Assembly (NCBI GenBank): GCA_040757115.1
Contig: JBFLYA010000219.1
Location: 1-6,143, forward strand
Reading direction: 5' to 3'
DNA length: 6,143 nucleotides
DNA from: a bacterium
GTDB lineage: Bacteria > UBA9089 > CG2-30-40-21 > SBAY01
In this document: in pieces, positions 115 to 5,896 of the stretch
Position numbering within the stretch: position 1 is the first letter of the stretch
Layout of the letters: each line of letters opens with the position of its first letter
Position numbers and translations under genes: made by a program
The notes under the pieces: model-generated
What the model saw: only the letters and a program-made list of their open reading frames with translations
The model's database searches: none
Told to the model about the DNA's origin: nothing

Positions 115-147
115 GAGCGTTTCTCCTACCAATAACTGACCGATTAC

Positions 148-250
148 CTCAGCCGAACGGTATTTAATTACCAGTTACCAATTACCAGTTACCAATTACC
201 AGTTACCAGAATCAAATTCCGTGCGTTATTTGTTCAACACGACACTAGAC
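148..250 (-). repeat. dispersed repeat, copy A, with six 7-bp tandem units
   Basis: Read on the minus strand, this segment matches 4891-4986 on the plus strand. Only three substitutions separate them, plus one 7-bp length difference. It has three parts: a unique arm of about 43 bp containing GTCGTGTTGAACAAATAACG, a run of 7-bp units alternating GGTAACT and GGTAATT (six here), and an end arm reading AAATACCGTTCGGCTGAG. The first arm overlaps the last codon and the TAG stop of pilT, so the repeat sits directly at the gene's 3' end in the pilT sense. I see no transposase or long terminal inverted repeats, so any spread would depend on enzymes supplied elsewhere. The family name is unknown to me. 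Confidence 0.85.
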
Positions 251-1321
251 CATCTGAAGTCTTGTTGCTCTTTGTTCAAATTCCTTTGGATTTGGTGAAC
301 GAGCTAACGCCTCATCGTAAGTAACAAGGTTATTTTTAACTAATTCTAATAAATCACTGTCCAGGGTTCGCATTCCATAACCACCACTGGATTGAATGAT
401 AGTATACATTTGATGTGCCTTTCCCTCTCTAATCAAACTTCTAATGGCTGGGATAGCAATCATAATTTCAAAGGCAACAACTCTGCCTTTCCCATCAACT
501 CTGGGCACGATAGTTTGTGAAACAATCGCCTGAAGATTTACGGATAATTGAAGTCTAACCTGTTCTTGCTGTTCAACCGGGAAGACATCAATAATGCGGT
601 CTATGGTTTGAACGGCATTATTTGTATGTAATGTTGCAAACACTAAAACCCCGGTTTCAGCCGCAGTAATAGCCGCAGAGATAGTTTCTAAATCGCGCAT
701 CTCTCCAACTAAAATAATATCTGGATTTTGTCGCATCACATGCTTTAACGCATCGGCAAAGGAAACAGCATCTACGCCTATTTCCCGTTGATTTATGGCA
801 CATAATTTATCCGTATGAACAAATTCTATGGGGTCTTCAATCGTGATTATATGTCCTTTTTTATTCGTATTTATATGTTCAATCATTGCGGCTAATGTTG
901 TTGATTTACCACTTCCGGTAGGTCCTGTCACCAATATAAATCCACGCGGAAGCATTGCCAGTTGTTTAAATACCTGCGGCAAAACTAATTCATCAATTGT
1001 CTGTATCTTGATAGGTATCGTTCGCAAAACAGCACCAATGTTCCCTCTCTGTTGAAATATGTTCACCCTGAACCTTGCAACATCAGAAATCGTATAGGAT
1101 AAATCTAACTCAAGATTCTTCTCAAACCTTTTCTGTCTTTCCTCACTTAAAATACTGTATAATAATTCATTAGCATCTTGTGGAGATAGTGCTGGAAATT
1201 TTTCTGTTCTGGTTAAATGCCCATGTATTCTAAAAAAGGGTGGTTCTCCAACACGAATATGTAAATCAGAACCACCTTCATAGACCATTTCTTTCAATAG
1301 GTCATCAAGTGTAAATTCCAT
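245..1321 (-). CDS. pilT: type IV pilus retraction ATPase PilT
   Basis: PilT is a cytoplasmic hexameric ATPase of the secretion/pilus superfamily that depolymerises type IV pili and drives twitching motility and DNA uptake. The 358-residue product has the usual family length. It shows the N-terminal GGSDLH signature (residues 16-21), Walker A GPTGSGKST (133-141), an Asp box IEDPIEF (161-167), Walker B with catalytic Glu in ILVGEMRD (203-210), and a His box ATLHTNNA (229-236). The PilT-specific AIRSLIREGK motif (292-301) separates it from assembly ATPases such as PilB. The ATG is supported by AGGAG seven bases upstream (complement of 1329-1333). No pilB, pilC or pilin gene is in the window. 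The gene follows a 225-bp palindromic spacer. Its stop codon lies inside the copy A repeat, so the final residue or two may derive from the repeat. Confidence 0.95.
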   Translation of the reverse strand: MEFTLDDLLKEMVYEGGSDLHIRVGEPPFFRIHGHLTRTEKFPALSPQDANELLYSILSEERQKRFEKNLELDLSYTISDVARFRVNIFQQRGNIGAVLRTIPIKIQTIDELVLPQVFKQLAMLPRGFILVTGPTGSGKSTTLAAMIEHINTNKKGHIITIEDPIEFVHTDKLCAINQREIGVDAVSFADALKHVMRQNPDIILVGEMRDLETISAAITAAETGVLVFATLHTNNAVQTIDRIIDVFPVEQQEQVRLQLSVNLQAIVSQTIVPRVDGKGRVVAFEIMIAIPAIRSLIREGKAHQMYTIIQSSGGYGMRTLDSDLLELVKNNLVTYDEALARSPNPKEFEQRATRLQMV

Positions 1322-1347
1322 TCGGTTGCTCCTTGTTTTTTGTAACC

Positions 1348-1572
1348 GTTCAGGCTATATATCAAAAGTGTAAGAAAGGGGATAAGGAGATAAGGGCGAT
1401 ATGGAGATAAGATAATAGAAATAGATTGAAATTTATAGAAATAGGTAGAAATTGATTGTGGAAAACAACAAATTTCCATAAATTTCTATTAGTTTCTACT
1501 AATTTCAATTTTTTTAATAATATCTCCCTATCTCCTTAATCTCCACATCTCCTTTTGTTACACCACCTGAAC
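1348..1572. repeat. 225-bp imperfect palindrome with 8-bp and 10-bp tandem arms
   Basis: This fills most of the 276-bp gap between pilT and the secreted-protein gene. The outer ends are GTTCAGG (1348-1354) and its complement CCTGAAC (1566-1572). Inside on each arm comes a block of roughly 8-bp units related to GGAGATAA (about 1378-1410 on the left, about 1519-1554 on the right as the complement). A further block follows with a GAAA core recurring every 10 bp (left at 1417, 1427, 1437 and 1447; right TTTC at 1473, 1483, 1493 and 1503). The centre is near 1462. The arms match imperfectly, so this would be a long interrupted hairpin in RNA. A pilT promoter probably lies at its left edge or within it, but I find no strong one (TATATA at 1356-1361 lacks a good -35). 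Confidence 0.8.
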
Positions 1573-1597
1573 ACTTACTGTTTTTTAAAATCGAATT

Positions 1598-2044
1598 TTA
1601 TCTCTCTTCTGATTCAATCGTAACTTTTGCCGGATACGGGTAATTTTCCTCCATCACTATCGGTCCGCTCATAGTTGGTGTTTTAACATTAATAATTCCG
1701 TCTGAAGCCGCAAATGAGTATTTATGAGTGCCTGCCTGTAACTTAGTTCTATATTGATATGTTACCCCATCTTCATAATTATTATCAGTTACATCCACCT
1801 TTTCCATCGGATATATTCTGTCATCAATCCAGACCTCAATAAAACCTGGTGGGGCACCTTCTGGGTCTGCATAAATTATTGTATAAGTGAATACTGTTTT
1901 AAGGTTACCATTTACAGGAGAGACTTTAGGTGGAACAGGATAACATATTACCCAATTCTCATCACTATTTCCTTCATTTAATCCAAAGGCATAATTTGAA
2001 AATAATATGAAACAGATGGTCAATATAATTATTTTTCTTTTCAT
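1598..2044 (-). CDS. secreted single-domain Ig-like protein, function unknown
   Basis: This 148-residue protein begins with a signal peptide: MKRK, a hydrophobic core at about residues 5-17, and a likely cleavage after the Ala-Phe-Gly near residue 21. The rest is one beta-rich module running from PPKVSPVNG through YADPEG and IEVWIDDRIYPM to LQAGTHKYSFAASDG and SGPIV. That pattern is familiar to me from Ig/PKD-like modules that usually occur in tandem in large exported or surface proteins. No catalytic motif, sortase signal or C-terminal membrane anchor is visible. It begins 13 nt after the two-CW-like gene and is probably co-transcribed with it. Its ribosome site is weak and close (AGGA two bases before the ATG), so translational coupling is plausible. 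The start is fixed by the signal peptide. Role unknown; binding or adhesion is only a guess. Confidence 0.75.
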   Translation of the reverse strand: MKRKIIILTICFILFSNYAFGLNEGNSDENWVICYPVPPKVSPVNGNLKTVFTYTIIYADPEGAPPGFIEVWIDDRIYPMEKVDVTDNNYEDGVTYQYRTKLQAGTHKYSFAASDGIINVKTPTMSGPIVMEENYPYPAKVTIESEER

Positions 2045-2057
2045 TTTCCTATCTACT

Positions 2058-2237
2058 TTATTTCCCTGTTTTTCCTACTGCGGATTGATATATTGGGCAT
2101 TGTAAACATCTGTCTTTATCATTTCGTTTACAACAGGGTATATTAAGAATTTCCCAACAGTTAGAATTTTGCTGGTAAGCCTGACAATTCAAATAATGGC
2201 TTGCCGGGCACCCTCTAATCTCATAACATCTTTTCAT
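2058..2237 (-). CDS. 59-residue eight-cysteine protein, two-CW domain-like
   Basis: This small gene was found by translating the gap between its neighbours. ATG at 2235-2237 is preceded by AGGGG with 6 nt spacing (complement of 2244-2248) and the frame ends in TAA at 2058-2060. The product has eight cysteines (4, 10, 18, 27, 35, 36, 44, 47). Two aromatic-acidic cysteine motifs stand out, CYEIRGCP (4-11) and NCWEI (26-30), followed by PCCKR (34-38) and CLQCPIY (44-50). This resembles the two-CW family of small putative metal-binding or redox domains, known as separate proteins and fused to signalling proteins. There is no signal peptide or membrane segment, so it is probably cytosolic. It begins 53 nt after the HD-GYP gene and ends 13 nt before the secreted-protein gene, all on one strand. 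A sensing or accessory role with the HD-GYP protein is inference from position. Confidence 0.78.
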   Translation of the reverse strand: MKRCYEIRGCPASHYLNCQAYQQNSNCWEILNIPCCKRNDKDRCLQCPIYQSAVGKTGK

Positions 2238-2290
2238 TAAAAACCCCTTTTGGAAGTAAAGTTAACCATCTCGATATCTTTGACAACTGC

Positions 2291-4279
2291 TTACTTCCTA
2301 CTTTTTATTCGTTCTTTATTTAAAACCTTAATAAACGCAGACACTACTTTACCATCAAATAAATACCCACACCCTCTTTTGAGTTCTGAGATGGCATCTT
2401 CTGAACTAAATGCTTTCCGATAAGGTCTAATTGAAGTCATTGCATCATAGACATCAGCAACCGTGATAATTTTAGCGATTAAAGGCACACTATTATCATT
2501 TAGAGATTCTGGATAACCACTACCATCTATTCTTTCATGATGGAATTTTACGCCGTCAATAATTTCCTTTTCAGAACAAATTGGCTCTAATATTTTTGCT
2601 CCAATTAAAGTATGTTTTTTAACATTTTCAAACTCGGGAATTGTTAACCGTTCTTTTTTATTAAGTATTTGATCCGAAATACCAATATTACCTAAATCAT
2701 GCAAAAAACCCGCTATTTTAGCCTTTTTTATCTCTTCTGTTGACAGTCCAAGTTCCGTAGCTATCATCTCTGAATATTTAGCCACCCGCTCACAATGACC
2801 ATGAGTATAGATGTCTTTTGCCTCCACGGCGGCCAATAATGATTGAATAGTATTAAGGAAACTTGTCATTTTCTCTTGATAAAGATTGGCATTTTCAATC
2901 GCTACGCCGACTTCATTGCTCAAGATTGAAAGAAACTCTATATCCTCTCGGGTATAAGATTCCAAAGACATCTTTTCCCCTAATGATAGCATTCCCAATA
3001 ACTTATCCTTAGAGGTTAAAGGAATACATATAGCGGCGTCTAATGCCTCAATGTCTTTTTTTATCTCACGCCATTGTCCATTAATACTATTTCTTACCTC
3101 TTCCCTGATAATTGGTTTTTTAGATTGAATTAAGTAATGAATTAGTCCAGAATCAGTTTTAAATCTCGTTGTTTTCTTTTTTATTACATCTAATCCTATC
3201 GCTCGATTTACCTGAACAGTGTCCTTTGTTTCATCAAGTAAAATAATGGATGCATTCCGAATATGTATCATATTTACCATAGAATTTAAAAAGGTATCTA
3301 ACAATATTTCCCGGTCAAAGTTAGAAGCAATCTTCCGACTAATTTCTTTCGCCATATATTCCTGATTAAGTCTTTCACGAAAAAAATATCTATCAATAGT
3401 CGCCTGCATCTTCTCCCATATAAATTGAAAAAAGATAATTAATGTCAGGATAATTAATATAGATGTGATGAGTGAATTATAACCGATTAGTTTTCTAAAT
3501 GCCAGTTCAAACCATAGAATACCTCCCAAAAATAAAGCAAATATAAACCCACTTAGCCCAAAATAGATAAATTTTCTTCCCAAAATCTCGATATTTTGGG
3601 TTTCAATCGTAACTAATCTATGTCTAACAATAGTATAAACTATGATTAAAGGATAAATCCCCGTAAGAAGGTGTCCTGCCGCATACATCTTACCAGATAT
3701 AAAACAAAACAGATTACTTCCTATCCCAACAAGATTAATATATCCTCCAACAAATAACAATCGTAATTGTTTTTTTTCAATAATATTACTTGTTGTCCTT
3801 CTACGGTTAGCTAAAACTAAAAGGCTATAAATTCCTGTTCCGCTAAAAAAGATAAAGAATAAAAAATCACCAACTTGACCTACTGGATAGTAACAACCTT
3901 TAACATAATTAACATCCTGAGTCATCATTCCCATTGCACTTAGAATGAGAAATAGATAACTAAAACCGTAATTAACCTGGCATATCCTTTTAGTAATTAA
4001 TCGATGGTCTCCAATAGTAGTTAATACCAGATGAAAAAAGACGGAAGGAATAAACACCAGACTTATGTAATAGAATTTTAACCAGATTAATGCCCCTTGA
4101 CTGCTTAAAGAAAAATATATCCCTACGGAGGCAAAATTCCATAGCGCTAATATTAGTCCATAGAGTATTATTTTAGTTGCATTAGGGTCTTTTATTTTAA
4201 AAAGAACAAATCCAATTAACAGAAGGTTTGTTATCCCAGATAAAAATGCACTTAAAAAAAGGAAAACATTTGGCTCCAT
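2291..4279 (-). CDS. membrane GAF/HD-GYP protein, predicted c-di-GMP phosphodiesterase
   Basis: The 662-residue protein has three parts. Residues 1-220 hold about seven membrane helices like the N-terminal 7TM sensor region of some histidine kinases, ending in a Pro-containing helix followed by VRHRL. Two more helices lie at about 236-258 and 268-287. A GAF domain covers about 320-466. An HD-GYP domain covers about 478-655, with THGHCERVA (492-500), HDLGNIGI (527-534), H556, HHERIDGSGYP (580-590) and VADVYDAMTS (607-616). These supply the His/Asp metal ligands (H495, H527, D528, H556, H580, H581, D609) and an intact GYP. HD-GYP enzymes hydrolyse cyclic di-GMP to pGpG or GMP. The usual Lys of HDxGK is Asn531 here, so activity is not certain. 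The ATG has only a modest ribosome site (AAAGGG about 10 nt upstream). It is probably first in an operon with the two small downstream genes, and is transcribed divergently from rplM. Confidence 0.9.
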   Translation of the reverse strand: MEPNVFLFLSAFLSGITNLLLIGFVLFKIKDPNATKIILYGLILALWNFASVGIYFSLSSQGALIWLKFYYISLVFIPSVFFHLVLTTIGDHRLITKRICQVNYGFSYLFLILSAMGMMTQDVNYVKGCYYPVGQVGDFLFFIFFSGTGIYSLLVLANRRRTTSNIIEKKQLRLLFVGGYINLVGIGSNLFCFISGKMYAAGHLLTGIYPLIIVYTIVRHRLVTIETQNIEILGRKFIYFGLSGFIFALFLGGILWFELAFRKLIGYNSLITSILIILTLIIFFQFIWEKMQATIDRYFFRERLNQEYMAKEISRKIASNFDREILLDTFLNSMVNMIHIRNASIILLDETKDTVQVNRAIGLDVIKKKTTRFKTDSGLIHYLIQSKKPIIREEVRNSINGQWREIKKDIEALDAAICIPLTSKDKLLGMLSLGEKMSLESYTREDIEFLSILSNEVGVAIENANLYQEKMTSFLNTIQSLLAAVEAKDIYTHGHCERVAKYSEMIATELGLSTEEIKKAKIAGFLHDLGNIGISDQILNKKERLTIPEFENVKKHTLIGAKILEPICSEKEIIDGVKFHHERIDGSGYPESLNDNSVPLIAKIITVADVYDAMTSIRPYRKAFSSEDAISELKRGCGYLFDGKVVSAFIKVLNKERIKSRK

Positions 4280-4326
4280 TATTTAGTTACCCTTTATCAA
4301 ACCATCTACCCCTCCCATATTGTAAT

Positions 4327-4355
4327 ACATTACCATAAAATATTAAAAATGTCAA
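4327..4355 (-). promoter_or_regulatory. predicted promoter of the HD-GYP operon
   Basis: On the minus strand a perfect -35 TTGACA (complement of 4350-4355) is followed, after 17 bp, by TAATGT (complement of 4327-4332). The -10 is a poor match but has the TGG that makes an extended -10. Transcription would begin near 4320 and give a leader of about 40 nt before the ATG at 4279. The -35 is good and the -10 is the weak point. Confidence 0.45.
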
Positions 4356-4394
4356 GGGAAAAAAGAATCACACATCCTAAAAATAAAAAAATTC

Positions 4395-4423
4395 TTGCAA
4401 TATTTTTGATAATATGTTATAAT
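4395..4423 (+). promoter_or_regulatory. strong sigma-70-type promoter of rplM-rpsI
   Basis: TTGCAA (4395-4400), a 17-bp spacer and a perfect TATAAT (4418-4423), with TG at 4415-4416 forming an extended -10. The start point should be near 4430, leaving a leader of about 27 nt that contains the strong Shine-Dalgarno AAGGAGG (4442-4448), 8 nt from the rplM ATG. Such a short leader leaves little room for an autoregulatory RNA structure upstream of rplM. Confidence 0.8.
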
Positions 4424-4456
4424 ACACTTTTCCAGAAATTTAAGGAGGAAAGATAA

Positions 4457-4885
4457 ATGAAAACTTATATGGCTAAAGAAAAAGACTTGCAAAAAAAATG
4501 GTATGTTGTAGATGCAGGAAGTCAAATACTGGGGCGTATGGCAAGTCACATCGCTCATATCCTGCGAGGTAAACATAAACCAATCTATACTCCCTACTTA
4601 GACACGGGTGATAATGTAGTCGTGATTAATGCACAGAAGGTTAATGTGACGGGTAAGAAAGCAGAGCAAAAAATTTATTACCACCATACAACCTATCCTG
4701 GTCATTTAAAGAGTATAAAATATAACAAATTAATGGCTCAGTCCCCGGATAAGGTAATTAGATTAGCGGTGAAAAGGATGTTACCTAAAGGGGTATTAGG
4801 CAGAAAAATGCTTAAAAAGTTATACATCTACCCAGGTAATACTCATCCTCATCAGGCTCAACAACCAGAAATGTTAAATAGGTAA
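4457..4885 (+). CDS. rplM: 50S ribosomal protein L13
   Basis: L13 is an early-binding protein of the large ribosomal subunit. The 142 residues match the normal bacterial length. The diagnostic segments are in order: [18 protein letters not shown] (13-30), [17 protein letters not shown] (36-52), [17 protein letters not shown] (62-78), [14 protein letters not shown] (105-118) and the C-terminal [16 protein letters not shown] at 4442-4448 supports the ATG at 4457, and a strong promoter lies just upstream. It is followed by rpsI, the conserved partner, but at an unusually long distance (178 nt) because a repeat fills the spacer, beginning about 6 nt after the TAA stop. Confidence 0.97.
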
Positions 4886-4890
4886 CGGGT

Positions 4891-4986
4891 GACTAATGTC
4901 GTGTTGAACAAATAACGCACGGAATTTGATTCTGGTAACTGGTGATTGGTAACTGGTAATTGGTAATTAAATACCGTTCGGCTGAG
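4891..4986 (+). repeat. dispersed repeat, copy B, with five 7-bp tandem units
   Basis: This is the second copy of the element at 148-250, here on the plus strand just after the rplM stop. The unique arm (4891-4933) and end arm (4969-4986) match copy A almost exactly. The 7-bp run is GGTAACT, GGTGATT, GGTAACT, GGTAATT, GGTAATT (4934-4968), one unit fewer than copy A. TAA (4894), TGA (4905) and TAA (4913) put stops in all three forward frames within the first arm. As with copy A, the element follows a gene's 3' end in that gene's sense. Confidence 0.85.
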
Positions 4987-5039
4987 CTCAGGACGAAACT
5001 ATTTAACCAATTACCAGTTACCATTTAACCAATTACCAG
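4948..5039 (+). repeat. large hairpin and 22-bp direct repeat in the rplM-rpsI spacer
   Basis: Positions 4948-4964 (GGTAACTGGTAATTGGT) are the exact complement of 5006-5022, a perfect 17-bp stem. TAAAT/ATTTA (4968-4972 with 5001-5005) extends it after a 3-nt bulge. The loop holds a 10-bp palindrome CTGAGCTCAG (4982-4991), flanked by TTCG and CGAA. The 3' arm is repeated: TTTAACCAATTACCAG occurs at 5002-5017 and again at 5024-5039. This structure ends 5 bp before the rpsI Shine-Dalgarno site. It could act as an attenuator, an RNA-processing site or a 3'-end stabiliser. No T-run follows, so an intrinsic terminator is unlikely. Confidence 0.75.
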
Positions 5040-5063
5040 GCAATAAGGAGGTTTTGTAAAAAA

Positions 5064-5462
5064 ATGGCTACAACTCAAAATTATGGGACAGGTAGAAGGA
5101 AAAGGGCAATTGCAAGGGTAAGACTTCTTCCGGGAGTAGGTAAAATAGTTATCAATAAAAAAGAACTAAAAGATTACTTCGGTGGTAGAAGTTTAACCTT
5201 TGAACCTATTATCCAACAACCACTAATGGCTACTTCTACTTTAGGTAAGTATGATATTTTAGCTACCGTAGAAGGCGGTGGTGTTACTGGTCAGGCAGAG
5301 GCTATTCGCCATGGCATAGCCAGAGCCCTTGTCCGGGCTAATGAGGAATTGCGAACAATTCTTGGCCGGGGCGGATTTCTAACTCGAGACCCGCGCATGC
5401 ATGAACGGAAAAAATATGGACTCTATGGCCGAAGACGCAGATTCCAGTACTCCAAACGGTAA
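5064..5462 (+). CDS. rpsI: 30S ribosomal protein S9
   Basis: S9 belongs to the small-subunit head, and its C-terminal tail reaches the P-site tRNA. The 132 residues fit the family length and show [15 protein letters not shown] (7-21), [20 protein letters not shown] (69-88), [15 protein letters not shown] (106-120) and the basic tail ending in QYSKR, close to the usual QFSKR. The ATG is preceded by AAGGAGG (5045-5051) with a slightly long 12-nt spacing. It is the conserved partner of rplM and is presumably read from the promoter at 4395-4423 through the hairpin spacer, since I see no separate promoter. No clear intrinsic terminator follows, only repeats. Confidence 0.97.
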
Positions 5463-5472
5463 TTTAATGATT

Positions 5473-5786
5473 GGTAACCATTCAGGTAGTCCTTTACCAC
5501 AGAGACGCAGAGGAACAGAGAAGACATAGAAATAAAGTAACTATTCAGCCACTGATTAACACGGATTAGCACGGATAAATAGCAGAGGACAGAGGGCAGA
5601 AGGCAGAGGGCAGAGGGCAACAAGAGAAAAACCCTTCAGCCTGATTACGGACACGGATTACGAATTTTCAGTGTTTCATCTGTGTTCATCTATGGCTGAA
5701 TAATTACAATCAGGGATGTTAATCGTCTCGTCCATAGATTTTAATTTTTTCTCTGCGTCTCTGTGTCTGTGCGGTGAATAGTTACC
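5473..5786. repeat. nested inverted-repeat region downstream of rpsI
   Basis: This gene-free stretch is made of nested inverted repeats. The outer pair is GGTAACCATTCA (5473-5484) with TGAATAGTTACC (5775-5786), one mismatch. Next is CACAGAGACGCAGAG (5498-5512), the exact complement of 5751-5765. The inner pair is 5537-5576 with 5667-5706, sharing a GTAAYTATTCAGCCA border and an imperfect run of GATTAACACGGAT-like units. A further related unit begins with TTCAGCCTGATTACGG at 5636. The CACAGAGACGCAGAG and GATTAACACGG types of sequence are familiar to me as recurrent intergenic repeats in several bacterial phyla, but their origin is not known to me. No ORF here looks real. Confidence 0.75.
5582..5619. 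repeat. 7-bp tandem repeat, GCAGAGG type, about 5.4 units
   Basis: Five consecutive 7-bp units (GCAGAGG, ACAGAGG, GCAGAAG, GCAGAGG, GCAGAGG) plus a partial sixth. It sits inside the nested inverted-repeat region, between the inner arm at 5537-5576 and the TTCAGCC unit at 5636. It is purine-rich on one strand. Unlike the other tandem runs here it has no opposing arm nearby. The count probably varies between strains. Confidence 0.85.
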
Positions 5787-5835
5787 TAATGTCCAATTGA
5801 CCTAAAAAATGTTGAATGACAACATAACTAATACC

Positions 5836-5896
5836 AGTAGATAGTAGCAAGTAGAGAATAACAAGTTGCAAGGTAATTTTCTCGCTACTTTCTACT
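5836..5896. repeat. inverted repeat with AGTAG-type 7-bp units
   Basis: The left arm (5836-5858) is built of 7-bp units AGTAGAT, AGTAGCA, AGTAGAG. The complement of 5881-5896 reads AGTAGAAAGTAGCGAG and matches the start of the left arm at 14 of 16 positions. The loop is about 30 nt. It ends 33 nt before the ATG of the last gene, so it lies in that gene's upstream region. I find no convincing promoter in or around it. Confidence 0.7.

Follow-up and report, generated by a model that had tools for sequence, protein, structure and literature searches.

A new family of miniature inverted-repeat transposable elements with mirrored heptamer arrays, probably dependent on an IS630-type transposase, in two related uncultured bacteria

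The repeat unit of pneumococcus (RUP) is a miniature inverted-repeat transposable element (MITE), for which mobilisation by IS630-Spn1 has been proposed (PMC2229807, PMC3049150). Here we describe a dispersed repeat of an uncultured bacterium, the heptamer MITE, two copies of which lie in a 6143 bp stretch of DNA (the window) that makes up the whole of contig C219 (JBFLYA010000219.1) in a 4.3-Mb genome that is 99.9% complete. Like RUP, the heptamer MITE is short, non-coding, present in about 100 copies, able to form a hairpin and found clustered with and nested in other repeats, and its terminal inverted repeats (TIRs) resemble those of an IS630-family element in the same genome. RUP, however, is 107 bp long, has no described tandem arrays and occupies TA-containing sites, whereas the heptamer MITE has a 4 bp duplication and mirrored heptamer arrays; the two are compared by description and no sequence identity is expected. 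Free-standing tandem 7-mers between genes are known from the short tandemly repeated repetitive (STRR) sequences of cyanobacteria. The TAACTGA arrays of Beggiatoaceae, Cyanobacteria and Bacteroidetes are also tandem 7-mers between genes, and the unit of the heptamer MITE, which can be written TAACTGG or TAATTGG, is one base from TAACTGA; those arrays are described as free-standing, whereas the arrays here are parts of a transposable element (PMC4679880). BOX elements of Streptococcus pneumoniae share the conserved outer modules, the core of variable copy number, the TIRs and the target duplications, but have a single central boxB module where the heptamer MITE varies its 7-mers in both arms, as mirror images (PMC3049150). 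The candidate mobiliser belongs to the ISY100/IS630 family, characterised members of which duplicate just the TA dinucleotide (PMC2170065).

The window's own genome (G000) was compared with that of a sister species (G001), the sole other genome of the genus that was searched; genome-wide statistics are based on fetched loci, labelled L001 and so on. A search with window positions 4880-5060 matched about 40 places in G000. The 32-nt left arm has 34 matches in G000 (up to 3 mismatches) and 77 in G001, compared with 0 for a reversed-pattern control in each, so chance is excluded. An earlier reading made from the letters of the window (the sequence-only reading) had proposed either a mobilised non-autonomous element or a functional 3' RNA structure, and had named a shortage of further copies as a point that would tell against it; no such shortage was seen. 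Among 60 relatives searched, the arms were found only in G001, and the other 59 lack them, some sharing the heptamers only. With own and near records set aside, the exact left-arm 24-mer is absent from 84,980 GTDB species genomes and from viral contigs; the left arm has no match in phage or plasmid records. Two further families of the phylum, represented by G008 and G014, have related ends, with no transposase in the three loci inspected.

A line-up of 111 copies reveals that neither window copy is complete. The element is ~175-205 bp long, with most full copies between 175 and 203 bp; these start with TGTCGTGTTGAACAA and finish with TTACTCAACACGACA, extending from TGTCGTGTTGAACAAATAACGCACGG to CCGTGCAAAACTTACTCAACACGACA. 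The TIRs are imperfect, about 26 bp long and begin TGTCGTGTTGA; TGTCGTGTTGAACAAATAACGCACGG and TGTCGTGTTGAGTAAGTTTTGCACGG are identical at 20 of 26 positions. The interior consists, in order, of a left array, a centre (TTAAATACCGTTCGGCTGAGCTCAGGACGAAACTATTTAA), an inverse right array and a subterminal arm. In the one copy examined for coding capacity (L077), the longest overlapping frame starting with ATG, GTG or TTG has 42 aa and extends beyond the MITE. The predicted fold of a standard copy is one hairpin (-67.6 kcal/mol, z = -8.5), in which the left GGTAAYT array pairs with the inverse array of the right arm. In size, lack of coding, TIRs, target-site duplication, dispersed copies, past movement and long hairpin, the element agrees with the definition of a MITE (PMC2229807, PMC3049150).

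The flanks give evidence of movement. Of 62 unique complete copies, 30 have the same 4-mer on both sides (shuffles give a mean of 13 and at most 23), and positions 1 and 4 match more often than in any of 2000 shuffles. Because these outer bases are duplicated as well, the duplication is of 4 bp, and a duplication of TA alone was rejected. When pairs with CTAG on both sides are set aside, 44 remain, of which 14 are repeated directly and 1 forms a palindrome. The 4-mer is CTAG, the commonest flank, or a variant one base removed from it. Flanks of insertions present only in G001 were then joined by script and searched in G000: six such sites align essentially continuously across the junction, and several more do so partly. 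Ten junction alignments show a single 4-mer in G000 where G001 carries the MITE, and CTAG is found at none of the ten empty sites. On the strength of the TIRs, the target duplication, the sister-species empty sites and the many copies, the element is very probably a MITE of a new family, probably IS630-dependent and with mirrored heptamer arrays, that has spread in two related uncultured bacteria. The mobilised non-autonomous element of the sequence-only reading thereby has strong support.

Left arrays mostly have 4 units per copy (range 1 to 13) and right arrays have 0 to 19. Orthologous copies differ by 7 or 14 bp (L020/L118, L070/L138, L015/L127 and L001/L117), as expected if array length changes, as it probably would, by replication slippage or recombination between repeats. 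The arrays inside the MITE may have grown in place. Heptamers of this kind also occur outside the MITE and in other genomes of the phylum, and TAACTGA arrays are widespread in some bacteria (PMC4679880), which could be taken to mean that the repeats are heptamer microsatellites only, of the cyanobacterial STRR or Beggiatoaceae TAACTGA type, grown in place without transposition. Array growth, however, cannot yield 32-nt arms, TIRs, target duplications or empty sites, and the probability of this explanation is close to nil; a plain heptamer microsatellite was rejected for the whole element in view of the 32-nt arm copies and the TIRs.

Contig C265 contains a 1208-bp element (L148:864-2071) with ends of the MITE type and CTAG on both sides. 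It encodes an IS630-family transposase (NF033545, E = 1.2e-41; Pfam DDE_3), which is read in two frames meeting at TTTTTCCCCCC and in which, judged by eye, the residues of the DDE motif are apparently kept. The left end of this element matches both MITE ends at 21 of 26 positions, and its right end matches them at 17-18 of 26. Since no other transposon with matching ends was found, it is likely, as far as sequence comparison can tell, that a transposase of this family would have moved the MITE in trans. A 1991 study by Tenzen & Ohtsubo reportedly describes a preference of IS630 for CTAG targets.

Several observations weigh against a MITE moved in this way. Both G000 and G001 are fragmented, metagenome-type assemblies with many MITE copies at contig ends, and the flanking 4-mers of filled and empty sites disagree beyond expectation, the filled ones being nearer to CTAG. 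The IS630 element is single in G000 and its two frames need a frameshift to join, which may be programmed or a defect, and a homologue is absent from G001 although G001 has more MITE copies. Finally, the MITE duplicates 4 bp whereas IS630 elements are reported to duplicate TA only (PMC2170065). In G001, which lacks the IS630 gene that G000 has once, the MITE may have persisted after its helper was lost.

The same facts (a duplication of 4 bp and not TA, and an IS630 copy that is single and missing from G001) would fit another transposase, either of a DDE family with 4-bp CTAG-type duplications or IS1182-like and encoded in the same contig, with the likeness to the IS630 ends reflecting a shared target or ancient kinship. 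DDE families with such duplications include the IS5 and IS701 groups, and a second structure in C265, with the same right end, contains a degenerate IS1182-like gene. The IS630-encoding element, however, matches at both ends, and the left end of the IS1182-like structure (L148 ~2430) itself resembles the IS630 left end over ~40 nt. This likeness suggests that the IS1182-like gene is nested inside an IS630-type element, and the gene, being single, degenerate and probably nested, was rejected as the mobiliser. We therefore regard a different transposase as unlikely, though worth keeping in mind, and IS630-dependent movement as the better account.

The disagreement between filled and empty sites is far greater in the 4-mer than in the neighbouring bases. 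At the ten junctions the empty G000 4-mer and the G001 flanks disagree at 11 of 40 positions on the left and 13 of 40 on the right (for example L122/L174, L115/L175, L111/L179 and L077/L181), compared with a background difference of 5.5% over the 20 bp alongside (p = 8e-6 for the left and 1e-7 for the right). At insertions common to both species the flanks disagree at only 4 of 92 positions (Fisher p = 5e-6). CTAG is rare in the 158 kb of fetched G000 sequence (46 observed, 296 expected); in the G001 loci 57 of 80 distinct CTAG sites are at edges of the heptamer MITE, and about a third of complete element edges have CTAG. It is conceivable, but improbable, that 4 bp of the donor site, often CTAG, are carried along and rewrite the target 4-mer, a behaviour like that of coupling sequences in a DDE-type MITE; if this were true, CTAG, nearly absent otherwise, would be expected at element edges. 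Other possible explanations are k-mer error correction by the assembler at the repeat edge and loss of CTAG from the empty allele. GATC (62 versus 594 expected), GTAC (74 versus 304) and GGCC (76 versus 364) are, like CTAG, strongly under-represented in the fetched G000 loci, and the scarcity of all four suggests restriction avoidance.

The two window copies, A and B, are mutually inverted. Positions 175-248 and 4893-4966 are 97% identical over 74 nt and positions 148-202 and 4932-4986 are 91% identical over 55 nt, and the left arrays differ by one 7-bp unit (6 in copy A, 5 in copy B). Copy A begins at the pilT stop codon, the TAG of which is inside the CTAG flank, and copy B begins 7 nt past the rplM stop, within the rplM-rpsI operon. 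The sequence-only reading was thus right that two near-identical repeats differ by one unit and that each follows a gene in that gene's sense. Its outer limits of 148 and 4986 have to be moved, since copy A is interrupted there by a second element and copy B runs on to 5039 through an inverse heptamer array that it did not describe; likewise, its 18-bp 'right arm' lies at the centre of a larger palindrome, and full copies extend to a right TIR. Both insertions are common to G000 and G001, and the flanks of shared insertions are 97-99% identical. Because they are shared in this way, we take copies A and B to be old insertions, now truncated. The features of the window are as follows.

117..147, minus strand: first ~31 nt of the nested second element (GGTAATCGGTCAGTTATTGG...), then unrelated sequence; the right half of the MITE is absent here (alignment with G001; nested family in both genomes)
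148..244, minus strand: copy A, left part of the MITE directly 3' of pilT, 6 units, ending at GGCTGA where the second element starts (repeat comparison, copy line-up, alignment with G001)
166..208, minus strand: left heptamer array of copy A, 6 units
245..248, minus strand: left flanking 4-mer CTAG of copy A, including the pilT stop TAG
245-1321, minus strand: pilT
2291-4279, minus strand: gene for a cyclic di-GMP (c-di-GMP) phosphodiesterase-like HD protein
4457-4885, plus strand: rplM (stop 4885)
4893..4896, plus strand: left flanking 4-mer CTAA of copy B, a target-site duplication whose right partner is lost (a 4-mer precedes TGTC in all copies; CTAA is also at the orthologous G001 site)
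4897..5039, plus strand: copy B, right-truncated MITE between rplM and rpsI, with left TIR, left array, centre and inverse right array and without the right TIR (copy line-up; hairpin z = -7.1)
4897..4932, plus strand: left terminal region of copy B, TGTCGTGTTGAACAAATAACGCACGGAATTTGATTC, TIR and subterminal arm (34 copies in G000; full copies have its inverted counterpart on the right)
4933..4967, plus strand: left heptamer array of copy B, 5 units TGGTRAY
5006..5039, plus strand: right inverse heptamer array of copy B (ARTTACC), pairing with the left array (inverted repeat)
5064-5462, plus strand: rpsI (ATG 5064)

Judged by PilT similarity, Candidatus Desantisbacteria (74% identity) is among the nearest named relatives, and two metagenome-assembled genomes reach 85%. 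Right-truncated copies (L001, L018, L061 and L064) stop near a downstream ribosome-binding site, that of rpsI, of a DnaK-like start in L018 and of others. Further short intergenic repeats lie at window positions 1376-1560 and 5500-5870 (GGAGATAAGG, TTTCTATT, CACGGATTA, GCAGAGG and AGACGCAGAG).

Gene placement was assessed from open reading frames called by a simple script around each insertion, in 72 unique insertions outside other repeats, 40 of which have known neighbours on both sides. Within 60 bp, 18 of these 40 insertions have a gene start, 9 a gene 3' end in sense and 9 a gene 3' end in antisense. The left-hand gene is in the plus orientation in 33 cases and in the minus orientation in 32. 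Sense 3' ends are more frequent in a larger set (20 versus 11), yet right-hand neighbours are known less often there (53 versus 65) because contigs break within the element. A stop codon falls within the flanking 4-mer in about eight cases. The relation to gene ends and gene orientation that the sequence-only reading wanted tabulated is therefore not seen among the 40 insertions.

A functional 3' RNA element (a terminator, processing site or stabiliser) held at gene ends by selection, with the heptamers as a binding array, would account for the position of both window copies, in sense after a gene. Transcribed full copies would give the very stable hairpin described above, copy B folds well within an operon, and the Correia/NEMIS hairpins of Neisseria serve as RNase III sites (PMC2229807). 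However, the 40 insertions have no 3' or orientation bias, the copy A hairpin is weak (z = -1.8), and species-specific insertions and target duplications are traits of a transposon. Of the 42 base pairs predicted, only 1 is altered on both sides across 38 copies (covariation term +0.22), which gives no indication that an RNA fold is under selection. Taken together, the data make such a role very improbable; a 3'-untranslated region or terminator function was rejected on the placement and covariation tests, and this half of the sequence-only proposal is not upheld. The link to gene ends in the window arose by chance, from two insertions that happen to be intergenic: insertions of the MITE would survive mainly in intergenic DNA, and would thus appear to be linked to gene ends.

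Larger length differences between orthologous MITE copies are due to nested elements. The first of these is ~159 bp long, with ends GGTAATCSSTCAGTTAT and a GGCTGA duplication (G001:C87:7593-7751), and matches 12 places in G000 and 35 in G001, of which several lie within the heptamer MITE. It interrupts copy A at 147 and is a second MITE. Another nested element, TATACT...AGTATA (TATACT...GGAGTATA), is found at TA within the MITE, or at its flanking 4-mer, in G001 (L138, L117, L110, L120, L144 and L147). A further MITE-like repeat, which has the ends AGTGCTCTGTCGC(C/T)A(C/T)TCAA, is present at L148:2072-2222 and as abutting copies in L072, L075, L096 and L108, often having the CTAG or flank in common with the heptamer MITE. 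Finally, a larger repeat (CTGTATTAATGTCCATAAAAAGTTAG / CCAGAAAACCAGGTCCTAA) holds the MITE in both orientations (L003, L005, L011, L014, L022, L057, L078-L080 and others), a pattern suggestive of more than one insertion or of inversion via the terminal repeats.

In summary, the heptamer MITE is not a gene-end signal; it belongs to a well-known type of mobile DNA, within which it forms a new family. What had looked like a repeated gene-end element is settled as mobile DNA, and an uncultured phylum that has been little studied gains a MITE family. Sites that are filled in one of the two related genomes and empty in the other allow the choice of target, the growth of arrays and the nesting of elements to be observed directly. 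If the unusual 4-bp flanks are real, they would be relevant to the way in which such elements integrate. Additionally, the mirrored arrays indicate that heptamers reported elsewhere as free-standing regulatory repeats can also travel inside a transposon.

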